Source: Eubacterium sp.
GTDB lineage: Bacteria > Bacillota > Clostridia > Lachnospirales > Lachnospiraceae
Direction: 5' to 3'
DNA: 57,955 nucleotides
NCBI GenBank assembly: GCA_024681515.1
Contig: JAILAR010000048.1
Span: 1 to 57,955, forward strand
Of this stretch, positions 16,299 to 30,897 are shown in pieces. Both the position numbers and the translations under genes were made by a program. The notes under the pieces are model-generated. The model was not told where the DNA came from. It did no database searches and was given only the letters and a program-made list of their open reading frames with translations. How positions within the stretch are numbered: position 1 is the first letter of the stretch; each line of letters opens with the position of its first letter.

Positions 16299-16517
16299 TA
16301 GAGTCCCCCACAATCATAAGGAAATCATAACACACCGGTGATAACAAATCCGCAACAAATAATGAAAAAACGCCCGAAAAAACCGCCCTAAACAAAGAGA
16401 TCGACGCCCTGAAAAATCCAGGACACCGGTCTCTCAATTCATTTATACTCAGCTATAAGCAGACTCGCTCATACAGGTTGAATTAAAAATCTCCGATCAT
16501 AAGCCATTTTCCGTATT

Positions 16518-18266
16518 TCAAGCAGACGGCGTATTATCTCCGCCATCCTGCTTTCCCTTGAAATCGAAGGCCAGCATGGTGATGTCATCGAACTGCGGGA
16601 AGGCACCCACAAACCGGTCGATGGCTTTCCGGACTGCCGGAAGGAGTTCCTGCGGAGTTGCATCCGCATTCTTGTTCAGGGCCTCCAGCATGCGTTCCGT
16701 TCCGAAGAGTTCATTCCGTGCATTCGTTGCTTCCGCCACACCGTCGGTGTATACGAAGATACGGTCTCCCGGATGCAGCTCAAATTCATGCTCGCGGAAC
16801 CGAAGTCCTTCCATGGTCGCCACTGCCGGTGAATGCTTGTAAACCACCAGCTCGTACTGACCGCCGGCTCTCCGGAGCACCGGATGCTCATGACCCGCAT
16901 TTGCTGCCAGACCCTTACCGGTGGTAAGATCAATGATCGCAAACCAGACGGTTACGAAAAGCTCTGCTCCGTTGCCCTCACAAAGCTGCTCATTTGCATA
17001 GGCAAGCACCTCGGACGGGGTACCACCCATCAGGGCACGGTTCTTGATCAGCGTCTTGGCGATCACCATGAAGAGCGCCGCGGGGACACCCTTTCCGGAC
17101 ACGTCCGCCATGACCAGACCGATATGATTCTCATCGATCAGGAAGAAATCGTAGAAGTCGCCTCCGACTTCCTTCGCCGGATCCATGGTGGCATACAGAT
17201 CGAATTCCGTCCGATCCGGAAAAGCGGGGAAGGTACTGGGAAGCATGTCTGCCTGGATCTCGGTGGCGATGTTCAGCTCCGCACCGATACGCTCCTTCTC
17301 CTTTGCCAGACGCTTGACATTATCGATATACTCGTTGATACCGATCTCCATGTGCAGGAGACTCTCACTGAGCACCTGGATCTCATCGCCGGTCTTGATG
17401 GTCTTCAGCTTCTCGGATACCTGGGTGTTGTTATCCACAAATGCCCGTGCCTCGGAAGCCGACAGCTTGATCGGTGCAATGACGATCTTGTAGAACAGAA
17501 CGCTGGCCACCAGCATGTTGAAAAGCACCACGATACCGGTGATCAGGGAGATCCGGACAACAAACTTGGTCAGGTTGTCATCCAGCGTACGCATGGGGAT
17601 CTCCACGCCGATAAATGCAACCGTCTTCCCGTCCTTTACGATGGGGAGCATGGCCGTCAGGTTATAGCCGAAGCCGCCGTCCGCCAGATAGAATTCCTCA
17701 TATCTTTTTCCGCTGGTGAAGGAATTTGACACTGCTTCCCGGAACTCCGAGAGGATCATACCCTTATCTCCCAGCAGGAAGTTATCCTCCGGAACCTCGT
17801 AGCAGTCCGCGATATAAACCAGCGGCGTCCAGGTCTTGTCCTCGTAAGACGCGTCCGTATAGGCGTTCATAACGTCCATATCTACCGTGCAGACGAACAC
17901 ATCGTTGGCATCCATATTCTCACGAAGATCCCGCATCAGATTCAGAATACGCTTATATTCCGCGTCCTCCGTAACCTTCGCCAGTTCCTCTTCTCCGACC
18001 TTTCCCTCAGCGTAATCCATGGCCAGCGCAGAATACTCTGCCAGCCGGTCCTCGCCGAAATAATCCGCCGCGATCTCTGCCGCATCGTAAGCCATCATGT
18101 CATAGTATTCCTTGATGGAGCGTTCATAGAGTCCGCGGCCGACAATCAGGACGCCGGCATAGATGAGGAGTCCCATACAGAAGAGCACCGTCATGAATTT
18201 GACGGACAGCTTTCCTGTCTGCGTCTGCACTTCCATCTTTTCATTTACTTCGTAATCAACACTCAT
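16518..18266 (-). CDS. Membrane-anchored SpoIIE/PP2C phosphatase, copy 4
   Basis: 582 residues. Two transmembrane segments (about 20-42 and 235-258) flank an extracytoplasmic sensor domain. A HAMP-like linker and coiled coil lead to a C-terminal PP2C/SpoIIE domain (about 340-570). Metal-site motifs are intact: VGGDFYDFF, MADVSGKGVPAALFM, YTDGVAEATN and QFDDITML. The family removes phosphate from Ser/Thr of STAS anti-anti-sigma proteins. It has the SGKG motif variant like copy 1 (28908), unlike copies 2 and 3. It is the last enzyme of the cluster, 52 bases after GH3. Confidence 0.92.
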   Translation of the reverse strand: MSVDYEVNEKMEVQTQTGKLSVKFMTVLFCMGLLIYAGVLIVGRGLYERSIKEYYDMMAYDAAEIAADYFGEDRLAEYSALAMDYAEGKVGEEELAKVTEDAEYKRILNLMRDLRENMDANDVFVCTVDMDVMNAYTDASYEDKTWTPLVYIADCYEVPEDNFLLGDKGMILSEFREAVSNSFTSGKRYEEFYLADGGFGYNLTAMLPIVKDGKTVAFIGVEIPMRTLDDNLTKFVVRISLITGIVVLFNMLVASVLFYKIVIAPIKLSASEARAFVDNNTQVSEKLKTIKTGDEIQVLSESLLHMEIGINEYIDNVKRLAKEKERIGAELNIATEIQADMLPSTFPAFPDRTEFDLYATMDPAKEVGGDFYDFFLIDENHIGLVMADVSGKGVPAALFMVIAKTLIKNRALMGGTPSEVLAYANEQLCEGNGAELFVTVWFAIIDLTTGKGLAANAGHEHPVLRRAGGQYELVVYKHSPAVATMEGLRFREHEFELHPGDRIFVYTDGVAEATNARNELFGTERMLEALNKNADATPQELLPAVRKAIDRFVGAFPQFDDITMLAFDFKGKQDGGDNTPSA

Positions 18267-18318
18267 AGAAATCCCGGGATCTACCTCGCAGAGCCCTCTC
18301 CCTTCTCATGTTTTTTAA

Positions 18319-19923
18319 TCACTCGTTCCTCCAGATGTGCTGGGGCTTGGTCTGCCCGCTCATCTGCCGCCTGCCTGCGCTGATCTGCATAAATGTACTC
18401 TTATCCACGAAGGACAGTTCCACGCCCGAGATGGATCCCAGATCCCGCAGTTCATCGTAATCCCGGCTGAGTAGTCGGAGCAGACGGTCAAAATGCCTTT
18501 CCTCCACTTCCTCATCTACCGACAGGTCTCCCGCGTCCGGCGCGATCACGCCGTGATACCTGGCAGGAACGGACTGATAATCCTCACAGAAGAAATACTG
18601 CCATACCGGGATCTTCCGGTCTCTGGCCCAGTACCGGACCGCCCGGTCCAGGATCTCCATGTCCAGCTTCTCGCCTGCGATGTTCATAACCAGATTCCTG
18701 CGGTGCAGGAACCGGAACACCGGCAGCTCGCCGTAGAAGCCCTTCAGTTTCAGTACATCTCCCATGGAGTAACGATACAGCCCGGAAAATGTGGTCAGAA
18801 CCGGTTCATAGGATCCTCCCACCGTCAGCTCCGACGCTTCCAGGATCCTGCCGTTATCCGTATCCGCTTCCCGAAACTCATAATACGCAGTCCCGGGGTA
18901 CAGCACATAATCATAACTGTCCGGTTCCACCGGAACCCCCATCACACATTCCGAAGCCGCGTAGATATAATGCCACACCGGCAGCTCGCCGATATATTTC
19001 CGGATAGAGATCTCCTCCACCTGAAAGGCCTTGCTCCCGATCCCGCTGATCAGCCGGACCTTCTTCCAGAGCCGCTGCACGATATTCAGAAAGCCCTTCT
19101 CACACTCCGCTTTGACTTCCCGGATCCTCTCCTCACTGACCGGCAGTTCCGGCAGCGCCTTACGCACTGCCTCGGGGAAGTCCTTCTCCTCCGGGATCCT
19201 GCCCGCTTCCATATCGGAAAGCACCTCCAGGTAATGATCCTCCATGTACTGGAAAAAGATCAGGAAATCATAGAGATAGACGGACTCCATGGAGGTCAGC
19301 TCCGCATCCGCAAAAGCCAGCCACAGCTTCACATACAGATAATCGCAAGGTTTGGGGAAGAAGTTTAAATATCTTCCTCCGGATATCTTTCCGATATCCA
19401 GATTTCCCTGTTCAAAGAGGAACCGGTAGTAGGCAGATGTAAAGAGCATCACGTCTTCCTCTCTGCATTTCCGGTCCGTGTCCGCCACCAGGAAGGACAG
19501 AAAGAACCGTCTTCCTGCCTCGTCCGCCGACTGCATCGCCGGATACCGGTCCATCACATCCCCATAAATCCGCAGCGCCTCCGTGGTAATGGGGAAAAGC
19601 TTGCCGGCTTCCGTGGAACCCGAGGTCTCCAGATAACAGTAGACCGGGTCTGCGGTGATAAGCGCTTTTTCGCCGTTCCGCATCCGCTGCACCGGATTCC
19701 GATAATCCGAATAAACACTGACGGGTACAGATTCCCTGTACTGCTCCTTCGTTTCGATCTGGGAAAATCCGTGTGCCTCGCCGAATTCCGTAGCCGCATT
19801 CCGGCGGAGAATATCCCGGAGAACCGCTTCATTCTTCGAAGCAAAGTCTTCTCTGAACCTCTCCGATTCCGGATAGATCTGTGATTCATTATTTATTTCC
19901 GCGTTCAGATCTGTATACTTCAT
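18319..19923 (-). CDS. GH3-family acyl-adenylating/amide synthetase
   Basis: About 534 residues. GH3 enzymes activate a carboxylic acid with ATP and join it to an amino acid or amine. ATP-binding motif LETSGSTEAGKLFPIT (about 100-115), the EPVLTTFSGLYRYSMGD motif (about 375-392) and AGEKLD in the C-terminal lid are visible. Start is the ATG at 19923, inside the end of the ATP-grasp gene with a 35-base overlap and AAGGA upstream, so translation is probably coupled. The coupling with an ATP-grasp ligase and a MATE exporter suggests a shared product. Confidence 0.88.
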   Translation of the reverse strand: MKYTDLNAEINNESQIYPESERFREDFASKNEAVLRDILRRNAATEFGEAHGFSQIETKEQYRESVPVSVYSDYRNPVQRMRNGEKALITADPVYCYLETSGSTEAGKLFPITTEALRIYGDVMDRYPAMQSADEAGRRFFLSFLVADTDRKCREEDVMLFTSAYYRFLFEQGNLDIGKISGGRYLNFFPKPCDYLYVKLWLAFADAELTSMESVYLYDFLIFFQYMEDHYLEVLSDMEAGRIPEEKDFPEAVRKALPELPVSEERIREVKAECEKGFLNIVQRLWKKVRLISGIGSKAFQVEEISIRKYIGELPVWHYIYAASECVMGVPVEPDSYDYVLYPGTAYYEFREADTDNGRILEASELTVGGSYEPVLTTFSGLYRYSMGDVLKLKGFYGELPVFRFLHRRNLVMNIAGEKLDMEILDRAVRYWARDRKIPVWQYFFCEDYQSVPARYHGVIAPDAGDLSVDEEVEERHFDRLLRLLSRDYDELRDLGSISGVELSFVDKSTFMQISAGRRQMSGQTKPQHIWRNE

Positions 19924-22498
19924 CAAGGATCCTTCTTGTATATTTTCCGAAAAACGGCCCGTTTAATACCTGGACATCATCGCTTCCGCCCAGGGACAGA
20001 TTTGCTTCGATCAGTACCGCATCTCCTTCGCTGTCCACCGCCACATCCCAGGAGATCAGCCGGTGATGGCCCATAAAGGGATGGATCCGCTTCACCAGAT
20101 CCATGCATTTGTCCAGGCAGGGAACCGGGATTCCTTCGATCCGGTATCCAAGACTTGGATGCACCTGGGACGTTGCACCGTCATCCAGCGCCCCGAACCG
20201 TTTCAGCCTGCCCTTCTCATCGATCCCGCAGTAGATTCCCTTAGAGCATCCGTTATCCACTCTGCGGTTCCCGGCTCCGATCTTTAACGTCCGGCTGAGG
20301 ATCACCACCTGATCATCCACCAGCAGGGAAATGATCCGGTACGTATTCACGGACTCCGGATGGAGCCTTGCCAGATCCGGATGCTGCCGGACCGGTTTCT
20401 GGATCACGATATCCCGTTTCAGGGTTCCGATCACTTCCGAAAGCCGGGACAGATTCTCCCGCCGGAGCGCCGCCCGCTTCGATTTATTGATTGATTTATT
20501 GATTGATTTATTGATCGATCCGCCTTCCGCCTTGACTCTGCCTGATTGGTCGGCAGAATTCACATCTCCGTACATTTTGTCCGAATGAGTCTGACGCTCG
20601 ATCTCCGACATTCCATCCACCGGTGTCGGATCATCCTCCATCGTTCTGTCCGTCAGTGTCGGATCATCCTCCGGAACGATGTCCGCCAGCGTCTGACAGT
20701 CGTCATCCTCCTGCTTTATCTTCAGGAAATGCACGTCCGCACCGCCTTCCGATCCCTGGGCGCCCTTGATCACCACTTCCGGCTCAGCAAAGACCCGAAG
20801 GGCGACTTCCCGCTTTGTGATGGGCTGATAATCCCCGTCCACCCAGACGCCACCGATCCGCATGGCCACGGCCTCCGGCTGCTTTGCCTCCGGGAAGAGA
20901 CGGTAGTACAGACATTTGTTATCCAGATCATAGGACAGCGCCCGGTCACTGAGGTACCGGTCGATGTCACACATGTACATATCCTCGGGAATGTAATCCA
21001 CGCAGAACTTCCCGGACTTTGCGGTATACATCCGGTGGGAGGCGGTATTTGCCTTCCGTACATAGGGGCGGTAATATTCCCGGACGTCCCGGGTCTGTTC
21101 CTTCGTGAGCCGCGGATAATGATACTTATCCGTGGACTCCCGGATCAGCTTCCGGTCGATCCTGCGGAGTGCAGGATTCCCCAGGAGCACGATGTTGGTA
21201 TAGCCCTGCCGGTAATACGACGCCAGAATCCCCAGCAGATTGTCCCGCACCCGGAGCCGGTCCCTCTCATTGATCCCGATCCTGCCTGCAAGACCCGCCA
21301 TGGTGGGCAGATAAAGCGTATCCGGCAGTCCGGCCTTTCCGATCAGACCGGACAGACCGGGCAGCCTGAAACCAAAGCGGTATCTCTGCACGCCCTTCCT
21401 GTTATAGTATACCTCATTTAAGACCTTTTGTGTATCTTTTCCGAAAAGCGGTCCGCAGCAGACCTGGATACAGTCGATGGATCCCAGGGCCAGATTGGTT
21501 TCGACCAGCACTGCCTCTCCGGTCTCGTCCACCGCCACATCCCAGTGGGCGATGCGGTTATGCCCCATGATCCCGTGAGCACGTCGAACCAAGGCAAGTG
21601 CCTTTTCATGATGGGGAAGCCGGATATCCACAAATCGGTAATGCAGATCCGGGTGCTCAAAGACTACACTTCCGTCATTCGTAACACCGATATCCCCGAG
21701 CCTGCCGCCCTCTCCTACGCCGACCAGAACGCCGCCGTTATAGAGATTATCCACGCGGCTGTCTCCGCCTCCGATCCGGATCACCGATGCCAGGATCTTC
21801 ACGCCCTCATCCTTCGTAAGCATGGAAATGATCCGGTACGTATTCACGGAAGCCGGATGCAGCGCGGCATATGCCGGATGCTGCCGGATCTCTTCCTGCA
21901 CCACCAGATCCTGCGTGGCCTGCTTTGCAAGCCTGCGAAATGTTTCTGCCCGGTCAGTTCCTTCCAGGAAGAACACCCCATGCCCGCATTCGGAGAAGAC
22001 CGCGTATTTCAGAACGGAGCGCTCCTGCTCCGCAACGACAGATACTGCTTTCTCAAAACTGATCAGGCGGAAATCCCTGTCCAGCCAGAAGCCTCCGATC
22101 CGCATGACACGAAGCTCCGGCTGACGTACATTGGAGAAAAGCCGGTAGTAGAAGCATTTGTTGTCCAGATATTTGGAAGTCAGCCGATCCGTATAGAAGG
22201 GCTCGATCCGGCGATAGAACATGTCCTCGGAGATATACTCCGGATAAAACTTCCCCGAACGGCCGGTATTCACCCGGTGACAGAGTGGATCCACCTTTTC
22301 GTAGGCACGATAAAAGTCCCGGATCTCCCGCTTCTGTTCTTTCGTAAGCTCCGGGTACCGGAATTTCTTCCGGAACCCTTTGGTCTTCTTCCGAAAGATC
22401 TTCAGGATCGCCGGGTTGATCAGACGGTCCAGGTCCGTCACCCCTTCTATGTACTCTCCCGTGAGGAGTGTGTAAAGACTGTTGGTGATAAAGTTCAT
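19889..22498 (-). CDS. Tandem sugar-transfer-associated ATP-grasp protein
   Basis: 869 residues holding two copies of one ATP-grasp domain. Copy 1 is about 55-410 and copy 2 about 470-865. Matching blocks are DNKCFYYRLF/DNKCLYYRLF, MRIGGFW/MRIGGVW, HPASVNTYRIIS/HPESVNTYRIIS, WDVAVDETGEAVLVETNL/WDVAVDSEGDAVLIEANL and GPLFGK/GPFFGK. The Glu/Asn metal ligands are kept in both. From memory the family is ATPgrasp_ST. Copy 2 carries an acidic insert of about 95 residues with three KSIN repeats. Single-domain proteins are usual, so this is a duplication-fusion. It starts 14 bases after the MATE stop. Confidence 0.88.
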   Translation of the reverse strand: MNFITNSLYTLLTGEYIEGVTDLDRLINPAILKIFRKKTKGFRKKFRYPELTKEQKREIRDFYRAYEKVDPLCHRVNTGRSGKFYPEYISEDMFYRRIEPFYTDRLTSKYLDNKCFYYRLFSNVRQPELRVMRIGGFWLDRDFRLISFEKAVSVVAEQERSVLKYAVFSECGHGVFFLEGTDRAETFRRLAKQATQDLVVQEEIRQHPAYAALHPASVNTYRIISMLTKDEGVKILASVIRIGGGDSRVDNLYNGGVLVGVGEGGRLGDIGVTNDGSVVFEHPDLHYRFVDIRLPHHEKALALVRRAHGIMGHNRIAHWDVAVDETGEAVLVETNLALGSIDCIQVCCGPLFGKDTQKVLNEVYYNRKGVQRYRFGFRLPGLSGLIGKAGLPDTLYLPTMAGLAGRIGINERDRLRVRDNLLGILASYYRQGYTNIVLLGNPALRRIDRKLIRESTDKYHYPRLTKEQTRDVREYYRPYVRKANTASHRMYTAKSGKFCVDYIPEDMYMCDIDRYLSDRALSYDLDNKCLYYRLFPEAKQPEAVAMRIGGVWVDGDYQPITKREVALRVFAEPEVVIKGAQGSEGGADVHFLKIKQEDDDCQTLADIVPEDDPTLTDRTMEDDPTPVDGMSEIERQTHSDKMYGDVNSADQSGRVKAEGGSINKSINKSINKSKRAALRRENLSRLSEVIGTLKRDIVIQKPVRQHPDLARLHPESVNTYRIISLLVDDQVVILSRTLKIGAGNRRVDNGCSKGIYCGIDEKGRLKRFGALDDGATSQVHPSLGYRIEGIPVPCLDKCMDLVKRIHPFMGHHRLISWDVAVDSEGDAVLIEANLSLGGSDDVQVLNGPFFGKYTRRILDEVYRSERGNK
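20480..20521 (-). repeat. 12-bp tandem repeat coding for KSIN x3
   Basis: GATTTATTGATT (plus strand) is repeated three times in frame inside the insert of ATP-grasp copy 2. Repeat-number changes would keep the frame. The composition is AT-rich against a GC-richer gene. Confidence 0.8.
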
Positions 22499-22512
22499 GA
22501 TGTTTCTCCCGC

Positions 22513-24255
22513 TCAGAACTCCACCGTCAGGATGTTCATTCCGAGTGTATATGTGTAATGGCAGTCCTTGGACAGTTTCTCGATCATCTGCACGCCCATA
22601 TTAAAATCATCCTCACTGTCCATGGCTTCCTGAAAGAGGTTATACCTTTTTCCGGAGCACATGATGGACACGCCGATGGTTTCCTCCATGGAATAGATCC
22701 GGACATCCACAGGATCATCATCCTTCTCCAGAGATTTACGGACCATAACGGTCATGACCTCCTCCAACGCAAGGCCGAGACGCATCCCCTTCTTCCGATC
22801 CATTCCGTTTTCCGTGCAGAACAGACTGATATCCTCGCTGGCTTTGCAGATCCCTTCATTGGAGGACATGATGGAGAAACCCTTCACCTTGTTATTCTTC
22901 TCCAGATAATCGTCCAGCAGAAGGAAGGAGGAAAGCTCATGTTCCTTTCCTTTGGTCTTTGCCGCCATCAGCCGGGTGATCAGAACCGTAACCAGCAATG
23001 TCAGCAGCATACTGAGGGGCAGGAACAGCCAGATCAGCCACTCCTTGATATACATGATATGGGCAAGAACCAGTTCAAATACAAACGTCCGCATGAACAT
23101 GACCAGATTGGACAGAAAGACCTTCTTTGCCACATTATAGTAGGATCCCAGGACGGAACATGCGGTCTCCAAAACAACCGCTATTCCCAGGCAGATAAAG
23201 GGTACCAGAACCGACTGCTCCAGCTTGAATAATAATCCGATGGGCTGATGGAATACAATGATGATGATCGCAAAGATCGTGGACTGCGCAATCCCTGCCT
23301 GCATCTGCAGCCCCATCAGGCCCCGGACGCCTTCATTGTCATGCCCTCCCAGATAGATACCCAGCATGGGCGCCGCCGTCCGCGGAACCCCCGCGGTGAT
23401 GGCCAGAGAGAGTTCCAGCATGGAATTGATCACCGCCCAGAGAGCCAGAGCCGGCGTACCTCCCACCGCATAAATTATCATGTTCAGGACCAGCATCCGG
23501 ACCACATCCAGCAGACTTCCGAAAGCCGAAGAGCTTCCGAACAGAAGGATATTCTTTACCTGACGAAACCGAAAATGCCTGAGACTGAACCGGAAGATCG
23601 AGCTTCTGCTCTGCAGGATGCAGAGTCCGTAGAGCGTTGCAAACAATGTGGAAAGCACACTCGCCTCCGCCGCTCCCGCGATCCCCATATCAAACACATA
23701 CATCATCAGCCAGTCAAACAGGATATCCGTACCGATCATGATCGCCATCATGACCGTCATGGCCTTCGACCGCCCGTTCAGCTGCAGAAAATAGGTCGGA
23801 ATATAGACCAGGATATACGGAAGCGCCCCCAGCAGAGTGATCTTGCAGTAATCCTCCACCATATCCTGAAGATTGTCGTCCCGGCACAGAAGATCTGCCA
23901 CCTGGCCCGAAAAAAACAGACCCGCCGCAATGAAAAAGATGCTCACGATCACCGACAGGAGAAATGCCGTATGATAATAAGCCTTTGCTTTTTCTTCATC
24001 GTTATGTCCGAGAGATCTGGATGCCGCCACAAAAGAGCCGACGCCAAAAAGGCACCCTACCATGCAGAGCACCAGAAAGAGCGGCATATTCAGACTGACC
24101 GCCGCCAGCGCGTCCGCGTCCAGCCTTCTGGACACGAACGCGGAGTCGATCAGTGTATTTACGGTTCCTCCCAGGACGGAAAGCATCACCGGGAAGAGCG
24201 CCCGCATAAACTCTCTTCTTAAAAACAGACTGTTTCTTTTAAGGGATGATTCCAT
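22513..24255 (-). CDS. MATE-type flippase fused to an RsbW-like ATPase domain
   Basis: 580 residues. The first 445 or so are a 12-segment MATE exporter with the usual duplication (VMLSVLGGTVNTLIDSAFVS; AITAGVPRTAAPMLG). After a linker, residues about 470-580 look like an HATPase_c_2 anti-sigma kinase domain: GLALEEVMTVMVRKSLEKDDDPVDV and a final beta strand. The Asn of the N box and the Asp-Gly of the G1 box are not evident, so ATP binding may be lost. MATE proteins export small molecules or lipid-linked precursors. The fusion ties export to the partner-switch logic implied by the nearby SpoIIE phosphatases. Confidence 0.85.
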   Translation of the reverse strand: MESSLKRNSLFLRREFMRALFPVMLSVLGGTVNTLIDSAFVSRRLDADALAAVSLNMPLFLVLCMVGCLFGVGSFVAASRSLGHNDEEKAKAYYHTAFLLSVIVSIFFIAAGLFFSGQVADLLCRDDNLQDMVEDYCKITLLGALPYILVYIPTYFLQLNGRSKAMTVMMAIMIGTDILFDWLMMYVFDMGIAGAAEASVLSTLFATLYGLCILQSRSSIFRFSLRHFRFRQVKNILLFGSSSAFGSLLDVVRMLVLNMIIYAVGGTPALALWAVINSMLELSLAITAGVPRTAAPMLGIYLGGHDNEGVRGLMGLQMQAGIAQSTIFAIIIIVFHQPIGLLFKLEQSVLVPFICLGIAVVLETACSVLGSYYNVAKKVFLSNLVMFMRTFVFELVLAHIMYIKEWLIWLFLPLSMLLTLLVTVLITRLMAAKTKGKEHELSSFLLLDDYLEKNNKVKGFSIMSSNEGICKASEDISLFCTENGMDRKKGMRLGLALEEVMTVMVRKSLEKDDDPVDVRIYSMEETIGVSIMCSGKRYNLFQEAMDSEDDFNMGVQMIEKLSKDCHYTYTLGMNILTVEF

Positions 24256-24341
24256 GACAGTAACCTTACACTTTCAAATATCGCAAGTGTTTCGACAGAC
24301 GATCTGCACAGCGTCAGATTGCCTGCCCATAGCATTCCATC

Positions 24342-24467
24342 CTACTGCTTGTCATCATTCTTGTGCCAGTGCCAGAAGATAAATCCCAGCAGGAATACAT
24401 AGATCCCTATCGCATAGAAAAATGTGAACGCCAGCAGCGGAACGGATACTTCTCTGTCTTTCTTCAT
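24342..24467 (-). CDS. 41-residue membrane protein
   Basis: MKKDREVSVPLLAF, a single transmembrane helix, then FWHWHKNDDKQ. GAGGAAG lies four bases before the ATG. It sits between phosphatase copy 3 and the MATE fusion on the same strand. The WHWH tail is distinctive. Its position suggests a small partner of the exporter or phosphatase. The 24468-24644 spacer is T-rich with no gene. Confidence 0.6.
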   Translation of the reverse strand: MKKDREVSVPLLAFTFFYAIGIYVFLLGFIFWHWHKNDDKQ

Positions 24468-24644
24468 GTTTCTTCCTCACTTTCCTTTATTACATGTTTT
24501 TTTGACTTTTTTTGCGCAACATATCATTTTGTTTTACGTCATGCCACGTTGCGTCACTTCATGTTTCTTTACGCCGTTTCATGTTACTCCGTGCCGCCTC
24601 TTATTCCTGCATCACTCAGAATTCTTTGCGTTACCTGTATCACC

Positions 24645-26489
24645 TCAACCTTTTTGCAGAAATGAAAAGCTCAGCATGGTCATATCATCAAACTGCGGTT
24701 CATCGCCGGCAAAGCTCTGTACCGCAGCAGTTACCGCTTTCAGGATCTCCTCATCGCTCTTATCTTTATTTGCGTTCAGGACCTCCGCCAGGCGTTCCTT
24801 GCCGAAGCGCTCCTCATCCGACCGCTTGGCATCCGTAACACCATCGGTGTAAAGCAGGATCCGCTCTCCCGGAGCCAGCGTGATCTGAGATGCCGTATGG
24901 GGCAGTCCCGGGAAGAAAGCCACCGGAGAACCATGTGGCATCTTCCGGATGGAGTAACCCTCGCCGTTCCGGCAGATCGCAGGATATTCATGGCCCGCAT
25001 TGCAGATCTCCACATTTCCTGTGGTAAGCTCTACGATGCCCAGCCAGACAGTAACGAAATGACTGGTGGGATTGTTCTCCTCCAGGATCTTCTCCACATA
25101 ATCCAGGATCTCCGCCGGGCGTCCACCCATGGCAGCGCGGGACTTGACCAGCGTCTTGGTAATGGCCATGAAGAACGCAGCCCCCATGCCTTTATCCGAT
25201 ACATCCGCGATAAGGATCACCAGATGATCCTCGTCCAGAAGGAAGAAATCGTAGAAATCTCCGCCCACTTCTCTGGCCGGATTCATGGAGGCCTGCAGGG
25301 AGAAGCGATCGGTCTTCATACTCTCCGCAGGAAGCAGGGACCTCTGGAAGTTGGTCGCCATTTCCAGCTCTGCATCTGCCCGTGCCTGCTCTGCGTAAAG
25401 CTCTGCATTTTCCCGGGTGAACAGATTCATCTCGATGGCCAGGTAGGAGAAATCGTCCGCCAGTGTTCCCAGTTCGTTCCGTTCCTTTACCTGATGCATG
25501 GCCTTCACTGCCGCCTTATGATCCTTGTTATCCGTATATTCCCGGACACCCTTCTGGATGACCAGCGCAGGCCGGACTGCCTTCCGGCTGATCAGCATCA
25601 GAAGAACGACAGCCGCAAACAGCAGATTGAAAATCATGGCCGGCAGCAGTCTGGAATAGGTTGCCTGCTGGCTTCTCGTCTGCTCCGTCCAGTCATAGGC
25701 GATACCGATGGCCAGCCGCGGCTCACCACCGACAGAGATCGGGAGATACCCCACCAGGTACTCACTTTTCGTTACATTTCCGTCCATATCCCTGTTTTCG
25801 GCGGACGTGGAATCGAACTGTATCTCGTCGGAGGTCTGCAGCTTTTCCAGCACCCTGGCATTCGGTTCCAGCCCCGGGTGCTTTGCCCCCAGCTGATAAC
25901 CGTAATCATTTCCGCCTTCCACGATACCGGACTTGTCCTGTCCCATGTAATAATAAAAGTATCCGGCCCGTTCCTTACTGATATCCACCAGGAAGATCTC
26001 CTTCCCCTGATACATCATATATTCCGTGGCCATGAGCAGGTCCTGAGCGATCTTCATATACAGGGACGCCGCACTGATGTGCTGCTTTTCCTCGGTCAGG
26101 GCATTCAGGTCTTCCTTGCCGGCCTTCTCCAGCATATACTCACCGGTCTTACCGTCATAAAGAAAACTGTAATCTCCGTCCGAGGCTTCCGGCACATCCT
26201 CCATAAAGGTATCGTACTTTTCATACACATAGTCCAGTGTCCATTCTATGGGTTCACCGTTACTTGATGCATTTTGGGCAACCAGAAGATCGTCCCGGAT
26301 CATATCCTCACAGGTATTCATATAGGAGGTTCTTCCGCTGATCACCACGAACAGATCCACCACCAGGATCACGAAAAAGAAGACCACCGCGATGGCGATA
26401 CCCATCTGAACCAGCAGCTTCTTCTTTTTCTTATTTTTCGTCGGAGTTTTTATCGTCTCCTTTGTTTCCTTCGTTTCCTGTTCGGCCAT
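24645..26489 (-). CDS. Membrane-anchored SpoIIE/PP2C phosphatase, copy 3
   Basis: 614 residues. A short basic cytoplasmic N-terminus (NKKKKKLLVQMG) precedes a transmembrane helix, an extracytoplasmic sensor of about 230 residues, a second helix near 275-297, a HAMP-like segment and the PP2C domain. Motifs intact: VGGDFYDFFLLDEDH, IADVSDKGMGAAFFM, NAGHEYPAI, YTDGVTDAKR and QFDDMTML. It shares the SDKG variant and close similarity with copy 2, pointing to a recent duplication. A GGA/GAA hairpin (26506-26534) lies just upstream of its ribosome site. Confidence 0.93.
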   Translation of the reverse strand: MAEQETKETKETIKTPTKNKKKKKLLVQMGIAIAVVFFFVILVVDLFVVISGRTSYMNTCEDMIRDDLLVAQNASSNGEPIEWTLDYVYEKYDTFMEDVPEASDGDYSFLYDGKTGEYMLEKAGKEDLNALTEEKQHISAASLYMKIAQDLLMATEYMMYQGKEIFLVDISKERAGYFYYYMGQDKSGIVEGGNDYGYQLGAKHPGLEPNARVLEKLQTSDEIQFDSTSAENRDMDGNVTKSEYLVGYLPISVGGEPRLAIGIAYDWTEQTRSQQATYSRLLPAMIFNLLFAAVVLLMLISRKAVRPALVIQKGVREYTDNKDHKAAVKAMHQVKERNELGTLADDFSYLAIEMNLFTRENAELYAEQARADAELEMATNFQRSLLPAESMKTDRFSLQASMNPAREVGGDFYDFFLLDEDHLVILIADVSDKGMGAAFFMAITKTLVKSRAAMGGRPAEILDYVEKILEENNPTSHFVTVWLGIVELTTGNVEICNAGHEYPAICRNGEGYSIRKMPHGSPVAFFPGLPHTASQITLAPGERILLYTDGVTDAKRSDEERFGKERLAEVLNANKDKSDEEILKAVTAAVQSFAGDEPQFDDMTMLSFSFLQKG

Positions 26490-26505
26490 AAAGGATTCCT
26501 CTATT

Positions 26506-26534
26506 CGACACTTCGAGCCTTACGGCGCTCCGTT
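26506..26534 (-). promoter_or_regulatory. Leader hairpin (GGA/GAA family) upstream of phosphatase copy 3
   Basis: AACGGAGCGCC, GTAA loop, GGCTCGAAGTGTCGAATAGAGG on the minus strand. The arms match the family with one mismatch, and it is followed immediately by the GAGGAA ribosome site. It fills the whole gap after phosphatase copy 2. Confidence 0.65.
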
Positions 26535-26539
26535 AATTT

Positions 26540-28528
26540 CTATAAAAATGTGAAGCTGAGCATGGTCATATCATCAAACTGCGGTGCATCTCCCGCAAAC
26601 TCACGGATCGCCCGGGTGATGGCAGCCAGAAGCTCCACATCCTCCAGGTTCCGGTTGTCATTCAGAACCTGCTGCAGACGCTCTGCCCCGAACCGCTCTC
26701 CGTCCGCCCGCATGGCATCCGTGATCCCGTCGGTGTAAAGCAGGATCCGTCCGCCGTGAGGCATCGTAAAGTCATAATCCACAGGTGCCGCACCAAGTCC
26801 GAAGGCGATAGGCGTTCCATGAGGCATCTTCTCGATCACATATCCCGCATCACTCATGCAGAAGGCCGGATAATCATGCCCTGCATTGCAGGAATTCACT
26901 TCGCCCGTCCGAAGATCGATGATCGCGATCCAGGATGTAACGAAATGCCCTTCCGGATTGTTCTCCTCCAGCATCTCGTTGACATACGGAATGATCTCGG
27001 AGGCCTTTCCTCCCATCCGCGCCCGGGATTTGATCATGGTCTTTGTAATGGCCATGAAGAAGGCCGCGCTCATTCCCTTGTCGGATACGTCCGCGATCAG
27101 GAACACTAAATGATCCTCATCCAGCAGGAAGAAATCATAGAAGTCTCCGCCCACTTCTCTGGCCGGATCCATGGACGCCGCCAGCCGGAAGCGATCCGTC
27201 TGCATAGTGCCCTTTGGCAGAAGTTCCCTCTGGAAATGGGTTGCCAGGGAGAGTTCCGTCTCTACCCGGTTCCGGGCCTCGGAAAGAGCTGCATTTTCTG
27301 CGGTATACCGGTCGATCTCGGTCACCATGTCCGCGATATCATCTGCCAGCACACCCAGCTCATTTTTCTTTCTTATGGTCTTCATCTGATCTACAACTGC
27401 CCGGCTGTCCTTATTCTTCGCATAATCCCGGACACCCTTCTGGATCTTCACCGCAGGATCCACAGCCGCACGATGAAGGAAGATCAGCAGCACGCCTGCC
27501 ACCAGAACAAATCCGGCAAACAGGGAATTCAGAACCTGATAGAGGGTACTGTCCTGAAGCGACTTCTGCTGGGTCCAGTCGACGCCGATACCCAGGATCA
27601 GGCGGTTTTCACCGTCCACCTTCAGTGGCGCATAGCCGATCATGTAATACTTCCCGTCTTCGGTCTCTTTCTCCTCATAAAACTGCATTTCATCCGAAGC
27701 AGCCGAACGGAGCTTCTTCCGTGTGTCCTCCGAAGGCGCCAGATCTTTCCGGATCATCCCCAGTTCCGTGAACTGATATCTTTTCTCCGGATCCATGTAG
27801 GAAGGGTCGGCATACTGATACAGAAAGCCTTCCCGACCGTCCCGGATATCCATGATGAATACCGTCTTCTGCTGAATGAACAGATATTCCGCAGAGACCA
27901 TAAAATCCCCGTAAACCTTATAAAACATATGATATGCATACAGCTTCTGCTGAAGCGGAGTAAACGTCTCCAGCTGCTCCCTTGGAAAGGTATCCGCTAT
28001 GAGCAGCATCTCATCATCGAACAGGAAATCGCTCTGCTCCATCTCCTCATCCGTAACGCTGTCCATAAGACCGACGCCGTGTTCATAATAATAATCCACC
28101 AGCCAGCCATGCTCTGCCAGGAAAGCATTTCCGGCCTGCATATCACGGATATCCTTCTGGAGAAGTTCCTCCGCCGTATCCATGGTACTCTTCTTTCCGC
28201 CAATGAGCACCGCGAAGTCAGCGATCACGATCAGAACAGCAAAAGAAAGGGTAATGACCAGCGCCACCTGGAGCAACAACCTTCCCTTCCGACGTTTCTT
28301 TTTGGGCAGATCCGGATCCACAGATGAATCCTCTTCTGCGTTGTCCACGGAATCGGAAGAACGGGCATCTTCTTTCTTCAGACCGGATAAGCTTTGGTCC
28401 TCGATCCTGAACTCCTCGATATTCAATTCCTCGACGCTCGATTCCTCGGCATTCGATCCTCCGATGCTCCATTCTTCGAAAACGGATTCATCTGTATCAG
28501 AGGATTTTTCAAGATCGTTTTCACTCAT
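26540..28528 (-). CDS. Membrane-anchored SpoIIE/PP2C phosphatase, copy 2
   Basis: 662 residues. Compared with copy 3 it has an additional acidic N-terminus (about 1-75) with degenerate EESSVEELNIEE-type repeats, then KKKRRKGRLLLQ before the first transmembrane helix. The sensor domain, second helix, HAMP-like segment and PP2C domain follow. Motifs intact: VGGDFYDFFLLDEDH, IADVSDKGMSAAFFM, YTDGITDAMR and QFDDMTML. The acidic tail may bind a cytoplasmic partner. It probably dephosphorylates a STAS protein encoded elsewhere. Confidence 0.93.
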   Translation of the reverse strand: MSENDLEKSSDTDESVFEEWSIGGSNAEESSVEELNIEEFRIEDQSLSGLKKEDARSSDSVDNAEEDSSVDPDLPKKKRRKGRLLLQVALVITLSFAVLIVIADFAVLIGGKKSTMDTAEELLQKDIRDMQAGNAFLAEHGWLVDYYYEHGVGLMDSVTDEEMEQSDFLFDDEMLLIADTFPREQLETFTPLQQKLYAYHMFYKVYGDFMVSAEYLFIQQKTVFIMDIRDGREGFLYQYADPSYMDPEKRYQFTELGMIRKDLAPSEDTRKKLRSAASDEMQFYEEKETEDGKYYMIGYAPLKVDGENRLILGIGVDWTQQKSLQDSTLYQVLNSLFAGFVLVAGVLLIFLHRAAVDPAVKIQKGVRDYAKNKDSRAVVDQMKTIRKKNELGVLADDIADMVTEIDRYTAENAALSEARNRVETELSLATHFQRELLPKGTMQTDRFRLAASMDPAREVGGDFYDFFLLDEDHLVFLIADVSDKGMSAAFFMAITKTMIKSRARMGGKASEIIPYVNEMLEENNPEGHFVTSWIAIIDLRTGEVNSCNAGHDYPAFCMSDAGYVIEKMPHGTPIAFGLGAAPVDYDFTMPHGGRILLYTDGITDAMRADGERFGAERLQQVLNDNRNLEDVELLAAITRAIREFAGDAPQFDDMTMLSFTFL

Positions 28529-28647
28529 GTTTCGTCCCCTTCTATCCTAACCCTTCTATCCCAATCCCTATCCTGACCACCAACACCCCATTATATTATA
28601 CAATCCGAATGGTAACAAAAGCGCAACAACGCCAAATCCCATCCGAA

Positions 28648-28890
28648 TCAGACAAGCTCCCCGTCAATATTCTCATACAGCCAGTCCATGCCAATGATAC
28701 AGGCTAAGGAAAAAAGCGCATTGGACTTATCCATCTTCCCGCATCCGATGGCCTTGCTGCATTGATTCAGTGTCCCGTTTGCAACCACACCGGAGATCAG
28801 CTCGATGAATTTGTTATATGCAGAACCGATGGCAAGTGCTGCGATCAGAAATATCACCAATGACCCTCGGAACGACTTGGAAACGATCAT
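28648..28890 (-). CDS. 80-residue membrane protein
   Basis: An N-terminal hydrophobic segment (about 8-26) and a weaker one near 58-68, with the central sequence NGTLNQCSKAIGCGKMDKSNALFSL. AGAGG precedes the ATG. It lies 17 bases after phosphatase copy 1 stops, so the two are probably co-transcribed. I do not recognise it; no homologue is visible in this window. Confidence 0.6.
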   Translation of the reverse strand: MIVSKSFRGSLVIFLIAALAIGSAYNKFIELISGVVANGTLNQCSKAIGCGKMDKSNALFSLACIIGMDWLYENIDGELV

Positions 28891-28907
28891 TACAAAAGAA
28901 CCTCTAT

Positions 28908-30782
28908 TTATTGTCCGTTATAACGGACGCACAGCATGGTCAGATCGTCGAACTGCGGTGCCTCTCCGACGAACTCCGCTATGGCCCGGTCAAGCGCTTC
29001 GATCACATCCCGCGGATGCTCGCACTCATGAGAATTCAGCACCTCCAGCATACGGTCGGTACCGAAGAGTTCCAGACCGGCATTGGTTGCTTCCGGTGCG
29101 CCGTCGGTGTAGACCAGAAGCGTGCCGCCCTTTTCCAGTTCCAGTTCATATTCCCGGTATCTGGTCATTTCCATTCCGCCGAGGACAAATCCATGGCGGT
29201 CCTTGACAAGCCGGAACTCACCGCCTGCGGTATGCAGGATCGGGAATTCATGTCCGGCACTTGCCGCGAGCACTTTTCCGGTGGTCCGATCCAGGATACC
29301 AAACCATGCAGTAACAAACATGTCATGCTTATTATTGGCGCAAAGCGTCTCATTTGTTCTGGCAAGCACCTCCGCAGGAGAGGTCCCTGTCTTTGCGTAC
29401 TCACGGATGAGTACCTTCGCGATCATCATGAACAGGGAAGCCGGGACGCCCTTTCCGGACACATCACCGATGACCAGTCCCACATGCGTCGCATCAATAT
29501 CGAAAAAGTCATACAGATCACCGCCGACCTCTTTGGCGGGATCCATGGAAGCATAGAGCTCATAATCCGGAACATCCGGGAATTCTCCGGGCAGGAAATC
29601 CTGCTGGATATCCGATGCAAGTGCAAGCTCCGTCTCCACTCTCTCCCGTTCTCCGGTCAGCCGTGAGACTTCCTCGGTATAGTTGTCGATCTCCACAGCC
29701 ATCTTCGTCACGTCATCTGCAAGGGCACCGAACTCGTTCCGCTGTTTGATGTCCTTCATATGCTCATACGCTCTCAAGCTGTCTTTGGTCTCCATATATT
29801 CCCGGACACCCCTCTGCACCTTGCCCACCGGCCGGATCGCGGAGCGGTTAATGAAGAACAGCAGAAGAACCGCCGCCAGCGCCAGCGTAAGTGCACTGAC
29901 ACCTGCGATCCATATTACATCCTTTACGACCGAAGAATGAAAGCGGCTCCAGTCATATACAAGAAGCTGTACGGCCCGCACGACTCCTTTGTCCCTGTCC
30001 CAGATGGGCGTGATATAGATATAATAATAATTCCCGTTTTTCGGAGAATCATAACGTTCGAACACGGAGATGCCGCTTGTCTTAACTTTTTTTACCCCAT
30101 CCAGTCCATCCAGCAGTTCGCTGAGATCCTCTCCCAGATACGGATTGTAGTCAAGCCCTTGCAAGTCCTCTTCAAAAACATCTCCCACCACCATGATCGA
30201 TGTTCCCCAGTGTTCATCGCTGACATCGATGATTAAGGATGTCAGATTCTGCATCAGGACATAACTCATCATCTGTTCCATATAAAAATCCGAATAAATA
30301 TATGCAGCAAGAATGCGTCGTGCACGCTCGGGTGCTGCCTGAATCTTCTCCAGGTCAAAAACGGGAGAAGTGGTGCCTTCTTCCAGCGGAAAGGTCTCGA
30401 TCATTTCCATGAAATTCTTGTCCTCCGGATCCGCTGCAACATATGAGTAAGCAACAACCGGATTTGCTTCCCACTCATCGAAGAACCATCCAAGTGCATT
30501 CAGATCATCAAAATTGATTGACTGACGCGCCGCCAGCGGCTGCATGTACTCTTCCTTGGATTCCAGATAGGATCTCACATATCCTTTTTCAAGAAGCAGA
30601 GCCATGATCAGGATCAGCACCAGAAAAATAGCGGAAATGATCAAACCGACCTGTACCAGAAGTTTCCGGTTCCGCTTGATCTTCGGAAGCCGGATCTTTT
30701 TCCGCCCTTTTCCGTCTGTCTGCTCTTTTATCTGTTCCTGTGTCCGATCTTGTGCCTGATCTTGTGTCTGAACCGGTTCCAT
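28908..30782 (-). CDS. Membrane-anchored SpoIIE/PP2C phosphatase, copy 1
   Basis: 624 residues from the ATG at 30782, with GGAGG six bases upstream. A Gln-rich N-terminus and basic patch precede the first transmembrane helix. An extracytoplasmic domain of about 250 residues follows, then a second helix, a HAMP-like segment and the PP2C domain. Motifs intact: VGGDLYDFFDIDATH, IGDVSGKGVPASLFM, YTDGAPEATN and QFDDLTML. It is the first gene of the cluster; a TATAAT at 30827-30832 on the minus strand could serve as its -10 box with a poor -35. Confidence 0.93.
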   Translation of the reverse strand: MEPVQTQDQAQDRTQEQIKEQTDGKGRKKIRLPKIKRNRKLLVQVGLIISAIFLVLILIMALLLEKGYVRSYLESKEEYMQPLAARQSINFDDLNALGWFFDEWEANPVVAYSYVAADPEDKNFMEMIETFPLEEGTTSPVFDLEKIQAAPERARRILAAYIYSDFYMEQMMSYVLMQNLTSLIIDVSDEHWGTSIMVVGDVFEEDLQGLDYNPYLGEDLSELLDGLDGVKKVKTSGISVFERYDSPKNGNYYYIYITPIWDRDKGVVRAVQLLVYDWSRFHSSVVKDVIWIAGVSALTLALAAVLLLFFINRSAIRPVGKVQRGVREYMETKDSLRAYEHMKDIKQRNEFGALADDVTKMAVEIDNYTEEVSRLTGERERVETELALASDIQQDFLPGEFPDVPDYELYASMDPAKEVGGDLYDFFDIDATHVGLVIGDVSGKGVPASLFMMIAKVLIREYAKTGTSPAEVLARTNETLCANNKHDMFVTAWFGILDRTTGKVLAASAGHEFPILHTAGGEFRLVKDRHGFVLGGMEMTRYREYELELEKGGTLLVYTDGAPEATNAGLELFGTDRMLEVLNSHECEHPRDVIEALDRAIAEFVGEAPQFDDLTMLCVRYNGQ

Positions 30783-30897
30783 ACTCAACCTCCGAATGTA
30801 ATAAAAGCCTCTGCACATCCTCTCCCATTATACTATTTTTTCAGACTCAGAAAAATGTTTTTTTGATTTCAAATCATTATCATTTGCTGTCCTGTGG

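Follow-up and report, generated by a model that had tools for sequence, protein, structure and literature searches.

Results

The window analysed here is a stretch of 57,955 nucleotides from Eubacterium sp. (Lachnospiraceae; assembly GCA_024681515.1, contig JAILAR010000048.1). From 30818 to 16518, its minus strand carries nine co-directional open reading frames (ORFs), which encode, in the order of transcription, a SpoIIE-type phosphatase (phosphatase 1), an 80-aa protein, phosphatases 2 and 3, a 41-aa protein, a fusion of a MATE transporter with an RsbW-like HATPase domain, a double ATP-grasp protein, a GH3-family protein, and phosphatase 4. An earlier note, made from the sequence alone, had listed these nine genes, and all were found with the order, place, and strand that it gave. 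The gaps between them measure 14–177 bases. The sole overlap, between the ATP-grasp and GH3 genes, is 35 bases from the ATG start, as that note had it, or 38 bases if the TTG just before the ATG is used.

The fusion ORF (22513–24255) comprises a MATE (MOP) transporter domain (residues 9–433; 22957–24231) and an RsbW-like HATPase domain (residues 457–580; 22516–22887). Pfam matched MatE in the former and HATPase_c_2 in the latter, the second match being below threshold (21.4 bits against a cut-off of 27.4). The AlphaFold2 model of the whole fusion had a predicted local distance difference test score (pLDDT) of 90.8, and its best Foldseek matches were solved MATE structures (top TM-score 0.85 by target); the transporter part belongs to the MatE family and has its fold. 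The 50 Foldseek rows listed for the whole fusion were all MATE or other MOP proteins with no RsbW structure among them, so the structure search gave no fold likeness for the small domain. Profile-profile comparison (hhalign) matched the fused domain to stand-alone RsbW with an E-value of 3.3e-10 over 122 columns, compared with 0.35 and 0.097 for the STAS and SpoIIE profiles that served as controls. By our reading of the model, the order of strands and helices at residues 457–579 appears to be that expected for the RsbW fold.

Recurrence of the operon in relatives

We compared 25 loci that carry related fusions: the window, 22 loci (L082–L103) from a contig scan, and those of G160 and G136, which came from a survey of 392 genomes of the order. 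The scan used a three-row alignment of the MATE fusion; the best 80 of 372 relatives were retained, and the 22 loci matched at full length with E < 1e-100, while the other 58 of the 80 begin at E 7e-25. L082 and L097 are the loci of G116 and G057. The scanned loci are from Lachnospiraceae, Eubacterium, Ruminococcus, and other Clostridia, and their hosts include gut and rumen bacteria. Because near-identical pairs are included (L082/L094, L090/L103, L091/L092, and L084/L100), the tallies below count loci and not independent events.

A GH3 gene was located next or next but one to the fusion in 24 of the 25 loci, and in the remaining one the contig ends 45 bp on. SpoIIE was present in all 20 loci having at least 3 kb downstream, and 18 of these 20 also had a stand-alone RsbW, the exceptions being the window and G160. 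STAS was found within 4 kb of the fusion in 17 of the 25 loci and at 9 kb in one more; some of the other seven are short-flanked. This co-occurrence is not circular, because the queries contained no GH3, SpoIIE, STAS, or RsbW, and recurrence in 24 other loci rules out chance clustering of the core set. The conserved operon has the order STAS, (ATP-grasp), MATE fused to a predicted dead RsbW domain, GH3, SpoIIE phosphatase, and RsbW kinase. G116 shows this order in full, with the ATP-grasp gene, and G057 shows it without that gene.

The ATP-grasp gene was present in five of the 25 loci (the window, G160, L101, L082, and L094), which form one group on the MATE tree; none was seen in the available stretches of the other 20. 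The G160 order, MATE, double ATP-grasp, GH3, and SpoIIE, is that of the window. The co-occurrence in related genomes that the earlier note had proposed was thus borne out for the MATE-HATPase fusion, GH3, and SpoIIE, while the ATP-grasp gene was seen only in the subclade of the window.

Among 120 genomes of the same family, GH3 (PF03321) matches were found in 15, with 14 over the cut-off, and ATPgrasp_ST exceeded its cut-off in nine. The two occurred together only in the genome of the window (G000) and in G116, and they are adjacent in both. Searches with the fusion as query found full-length relatives adjoining GH3 in G116, G057, and G079. In the fetched stretches, GH3 stood beside a MATE-HATPase in four of the 15 GH3 genomes (G000, G116, G057, and G079), G076 had only a plain MATE near GH3, and nine others had no MATE-HATPase by GH3 (the G060 gene is at a contig end; G073 is outside the tally). 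The GH3 family is therefore not confined to the MATE-fusion operon. A search of the viral collection (P0005) gave no match.

The surroundings of the operon varied. In G136 (L193, contig C23; 5501–6607 and 12464–16940), the operon has the order STAS, GH3, MATE fusion, SpoIIE, and RsbW and lies amid contractile-injection-system genes, with Tail_P2_I upstream and eCIS_core and an AAA ATPase downstream. A gene for a radical SAM/SPASM enzyme was observed immediately or shortly before the operon in L083, L084, L100, and L102 (5' of the fusion) and in L231, with one to nine small ORFs (about 85–150 aa) in front of it. This arrangement resembles a peptide-modification cluster; of the small ORFs, one was scanned and had no Pfam match. 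In L082, a gene for a GGDEF protein lies just upstream of STAS, and L094 has a relative at the same place. The switch may have this protein as an additional target or input.

Loss of ATP-site residues in the fused domain

The ATP site of RsbW-type kinases has boxes named N, G1, and G2. All 25 operon fusions lack the N-box Asn, with Val, Leu, or Ile in its place, and all 25 also have another residue instead of the G1 Asp. A Glu-Glu pair was kept in 25 of 25. The stand-alone RsbWs in the clade loci kept both Asn and Asp (18/18). These results suggest that the MATE-fused domain is an apparently inactive kinase, standing beside one live kinase. The loss of both residues makes an active fused kinase unlikely, and the idea that this domain works as an RsbW-like kinase, which the earlier note implied, was not supported. 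The length of the domain is conserved even where clade members share only 31% identity with the window protein, and its fold is confidently modelled in the latter.

Three loci outside the 25 were also inspected. L194 (G391) has a truncated gene. L167 (G277) has STAS and RsbW with a fusion that has lost Asn and keeps Asp, and no GH3 match was found in the 1.2 kb beyond the fusion. L035 (G079) has STAS, GH3, two SpoIIE genes, and an Asn-intact fusion outside the clade.

Among other MATE-HATPase proteins, 59 rows kept the Asn, 58 of these with the G1 Asp (a few proteins were fetched twice), and 10 of 20 further Asn-lost rows outside the clade kept the Asp. A separate Asn-lost group also lies beside SpoIIE (L058, L059, L061, L218, L231, and L242). 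From 107 rows, seven were removed: L033 and L038, which duplicate the genomes of L082 and L097, accounted for three, and truncation or poor alignment for four. In the remaining 100 proteins, SpoIIE was located within 2.5 kb in 26 of 43 Asn-lost versus 5 of 57 Asn-kept proteins (Fisher 3.8e-8 on raw counts, with the distance chosen after the loci were seen), and within 6 kb in 28/43 versus 13/57. Because independent contrasts are too few, we treat an evolutionary association of Asn loss with SpoIIE as a lead and do not claim it.

Asn-intact MATE-HATPases adjoin large proteins resembling nonribosomal peptide synthetases (NRPS) in L038/L039, L050, L051, L087, L088, L090, L098, L103, L204, L206, and L237. 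Most of these NRPS-like neighbours have a terminal reductase domain; one was Pfam-scanned and reads A-T-C-A-T-R, and the others were assigned by similarity. The A-T-C-A-T-R NRPS of gut bacteria produce peptide aldehydes or pyrazinones. The NRPS-like neighbours fit natural-product export. Four MATE-HATPases of about 884–889 aa (L057, L205, L211, and L229) have an extra C-terminal region of about 300 aa that looks HD-like by eye.

Candidate STAS and RsbW partners elsewhere in the genome

The earlier note had seen no STAS gene in the region, and a profile of the STAS proteins of relatives likewise found none among window ORFs of at least 40 aa at E <= 1. The RsbW profile, run on the same ORFs, matched only the MATE fusion itself (E 0.0021). 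The search of the genome for a STAS partner, which the note had proposed, was successful: a solitary 98-aa STAS that keeps the motif SSAGLRVLL is on contig C176, and a solitary RsbW that keeps Asn and Asp is on C63, while most relatives have both genes in the operon. The C176 STAS is 60–69% identical to the module STAS of L082, L094, L097, L103, L085, and L093, and 44–47% identical to the more distant ones of L193 and L035. The C63 RsbW is 54–63% identical to five module RsbWs and lies between ORFs whose translations we read as glutamate dehydrogenase-like and FeoB-like. G160 also has no RsbW in the operon, and its STAS and RsbW genes are side by side on another contig. In the branch of the window, the STAS/RsbW pair thus lies away from the operon, and its similarity to the module proteins suggests that it serves the window operon. 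The genome also has a second partner-switch locus (G000:C26; L073, 7422–11267) with STAS and a SpoIIE-HATPase fusion; a 444-aa ORF upstream of this STAS, on the same strand, reads to us like a thioester reductase.

One conserved phosphatase and three additional ones

Phosphatase 1 (28908–30818; 636 aa, with an ATG at 30782 also possible) has a probable sensor region of about 210 residues. Phosphatases 2 and 3 (26540–28528, 662 aa; 24645–26489, 614 aa) precede the 41-aa ORF, and phosphatase 4 (16518–18266, 582 aa) ends the run. SpoIIE (PF07228) was matched in all four (E 1.9e-39 to 1.1e-49). The metal-site motifs that the earlier note had reported are present in each as GGD, DVS, and FDD, and each protein has two hydrophobic segments flanking about 180–220 residues.

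Phosphatase 4 is the core SpoIIE-type PP2C phosphatase and the only one of the four that is a member of the conserved operon; its PP2C domain is 78% identical to that of the G160 equivalent. Phosphatases 2 and 3 are sisters with 66% PP2C identity. The PP2C domain of phosphatase 1 groups with phosphatases of its own genome (C14, C186, and C184) and two of G079, not with the core phosphatase. The available stretches of the other 24 loci, some of them short, showed no second SpoIIE. Extra upstream phosphatases are possible in G160, the closest to the window in gene order, where the stretch has only 284 bases upstream. The genome of the window has 12 or 13 strong SpoIIE genes, compared with one to five in seven relatives; the count derives from 16 Pfam matches: one gene accounts for two of them, another two are weak, and two contig-end partials may be halves of a single gene. 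The earlier note had joined the four phosphatases in one switch, but only the core phosphatase is conserved, and, with no second SpoIIE seen in the other loci, many sensors on one switch are so far found only in the lineage of the window. All four phosphatases may nevertheless act on one STAS.

The model of the core phosphatase (pLDDT 80.9; predicted template modelling score 0.48) matched the phosphatase domains of RssB, Rv1364c, and SiaA, and its outer domain had no match of its own among the matches listed. With NCBIfam, the window phosphatases scored best against SiaA or RssB models, far below the cut-offs. SiaA equivalog identity was rejected (best 74.8 bits against a cut-off of 700), as was a sporulation SpoIIE role (TIGR02865, 14.7–33.1 bits against 490.8).

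GH3 and ATP-grasp enzymes

The GH3-family protein (18319–19926, 535 aa) has the Pfam GH3 N, M, and C domains and keeps three nucleotide-binding motif regions. Among solved structures, it matched plant acyl acid amido synthetases (E 6.7e-39). GH3 enzymes form amides via adenylation. The double ATP-grasp protein (19889–22498, 869 aa) matched ATPgrasp_ST (PF14397) above the cut-off, with 213.3 bits over two stretches. Lys114, Lys164, Asp320, and Asn335 (numbering of the first half of the window protein) are invariant in nine ATP-grasp rows and are kept in both halves, so both halves look competent. The double proteins of G160 and L101 are 58% and 49% identical to that of the window; L082 and L094 have a single ATP-grasp. 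The product of the operon is probably an acyl-amino-acid-type amide, which a second ligation would extend where the ATP-grasp is present. OlsH, for which the accessible text describes the coupling of fatty acid and ornithine with ATP to give lyso-ornithine lipid (PMC12493201), is not the identity of the window GH3 (40.5 bits against an equivalog cut-off of 620). In its accessible part, a preprint describing how fatty acid amides are made in the gut (PMC13142362) makes no mention of a transporter.

Other features of the locus

The 80-aa ORF (28648–28890, minus strand), which the earlier note had called a membrane protein, is present; it has weak similarity to the N-terminal region of MATE proteins (NCBIfam matE, E 0.015; blastp against the fetched ORFs, E 1.5e-4) and probably represents what is left of a MATE gene. 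A decayed second transporter copy may thus have stood between phosphatases 1 and 2. The 41-aa ORF (24342–24467, minus strand) has one hydrophobic segment and no convincing relative among the fetched loci. Nothing recognised in the flanks is part of the run: 3' of it are ORFs of 122 and 226 aa (unscanned), a 269-aa ORF without a Pfam match, and then DNA polymerase III alpha, and 5' of it, on the opposite strand, are an NMT1-like binding protein and a glutamate symporter. Promoter-like matches in the region showed no excess (18, versus 13.4 ± 4.9 in shuffles); one, with a 10-of-12 match, lies inside the run at 28618–28590. Terminator-like matches were in excess (24, versus 11.4 ± 3.3 in shuffles), with many located within genes. 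The longest, by pattern match a terminator-like hairpin with a 12-pair stem, lies 3' of the last gene at 16402–16428 on the minus strand.

Discussion

RsbW-type kinases phosphorylate STAS proteins, SpoIIE-type phosphatases reverse this, and unphosphorylated STAS binds an RsbW-like partner. Sigma factors are the main known targets of such partner switches. On balance, we lean towards reading the run as a lineage-expanded form of a conserved partner-switch operon whose output is an exporter, with STAS gating the export of a product made by GH3. The live RsbW would phosphorylate STAS at its conserved Ser, and the membrane-anchored phosphatases would strip this phosphate in response to signals received by their outer domains. 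STAS without its phosphate would then dock on the kinase-dead, RsbW-like part of the MATE fusion and alter transport, so that the output would be the exporter itself and not a sigma factor. GH3, together with the double ATP-grasp in the subclade of the window, would make the exported molecule. We infer the steps of STAS binding, phosphorylation, and transport from the gene content and residues described above. Given a live, free RsbW-like partner and a dead, exporter-bound one, it is economical to suppose that the dead domain reads STAS and that the signal ends at the transporter. In the genome of the window, with STAS and RsbW elsewhere and the phosphatases multiplied, many sensors would feed one switch; one or two STAS proteins of the exporter switch may receive the input of about a dozen phosphatases.

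Somewhat more tentatively, we propose a class of partner switches with membrane-export output, in which an RsbW-like kinase became fused to a MATE protein, lost its ATP site, and turned into a docking gate for STAS. The components are known, and the conserved transporter-centred combination appears to be new. If true, the transporter would be a new kind of partner-switch output, the fused domain would be a clear example of a pseudokinase in its superfamily, and an amide product would be released on outside signals without new transcription. The findings also point to a family of exported molecules, probably amides and so far uncharacterised, in the Lachnospiraceae of gut and rumen.

Several results weigh against an exporter-output switch of this kind. 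The pairing of the window operon with the C176 STAS and the C63 RsbW is by similarity only, because both are unlinked to the operon, and a second 98-aa STAS on C21 is 35–54% identical to the eight module STAS proteins. The switch occurs with no GH3 nearby in relatives outside the clade (L198, L058, L059, and L061), and L035, where STAS, GH3, and SpoIIE lie beside an Asn-intact fusion, indicates that GH3 does not need the dead domain. Asn loss and SpoIIE proximity gave four independent contrasts only, with which the sign test is powerless (median p 1), and 17 of the 43 Asn-lost proteins, contig ends included, have no SpoIIE within 2.5 kb. The retained Glu-Glu pair could also mean residual, non-canonical activity.

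The cluster may instead be an ordinary one for biosynthesis and export, with the switch acting elsewhere, on a sigma factor or an enzyme such as GH3, and with the fused domain a functionless vestige. MATE proteins and acyl-activating enzymes do travel together, as the NRPS genes beside other MATE-HATPases indicate. The radical SAM genes that precede the operon in L083, L084, L100, and L102, together with repeated small ORFs, also agree with such a cluster, and the GGDEF protein just upstream of STAS in L082 offers another possible target. However, a vestige would not be expected to keep its length across members only 31% identical, nor a confidently modelled fold, and we consider this explanation unlikely.

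A fused domain that is still a kinase or anti-sigma factor, with the MATE part a sensor reporting flux to a sigma-factor partner switch, seems to us distinctly improbable. The ancestral fusion was probably catalytic, because Asn and Asp are kept in other MATE-HATPases (59 and 58 rows), and all 25 fused domains keep Glu-Glu. Against this stand the loss of both Asn and Asp in every operon member and the separate intact RsbW kept in 18 of 20 loci; in addition, the scan of recurrent neighbour families turned up no recognisable sigma factor, although no search was aimed at sigma factors. Decay of the window operon, with partners lost, a MATE remnant left, phosphatases gained at random, and the switch gone, would suit the 80-aa ORF and the lack of STAS and RsbW in the window, but it is very improbable, since the core ORFs are all full length, the GH3 and ATP-grasp motifs are kept, STAS and RsbW are retained elsewhere in the genome, and G160 shows the same unlinking of RsbW.

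A literature search, mostly without subscription journals, found no paper on a MATE-RsbW fusion, its operon, or a MATE-HATPase partner switch. The exporter switch proposed here shares with the RsbU-RsbV-RsbW and SpoIIE-SpoIIAA-SpoIIAB systems of Bacillus a PP2C phosphatase, a STAS protein with a conserved Ser, and an RsbW with intact ATP-site residues. Unlike them, it has no recognised sigma factor among the neighbours that were scanned, and it carries a second, ATP-site-deficient RsbW-like domain on a MATE exporter. Rv1364c (3ke6), a structural match of the core phosphatase, has fused RsbU and RsbW domains; it joins kinase and phosphatase in one chain and, unlike the window system, has no transporter. 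SiaABCD of Pseudomonas aeruginosa is a phosphatase/kinase/partner system with an output other than a sigma factor, which the accessible text of the reports gives as a diguanylate cyclase (PMC8457831, PMC7647112), whereas the candidate output here is a transporter with a dead kinase domain. SulP/SLC26 transporters, as described in the accessible text of PMC8256260, carry a STAS domain, that is, one half of the STAS/kinase pair; here the opposite, RsbW-like half is fused and the transporter fold is MATE. The window GH3 has its domains and motifs in common with OlsH and the plant GH3 amido synthetases. ClbM (4z3n), a MATE natural-product exporter, matches the fold of the MATE part only, and the RsbW-like C-terminal domain sets the fusion apart. 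MATE natural-product exporters and the window operon share a neighbourhood with amide-forming enzymes.

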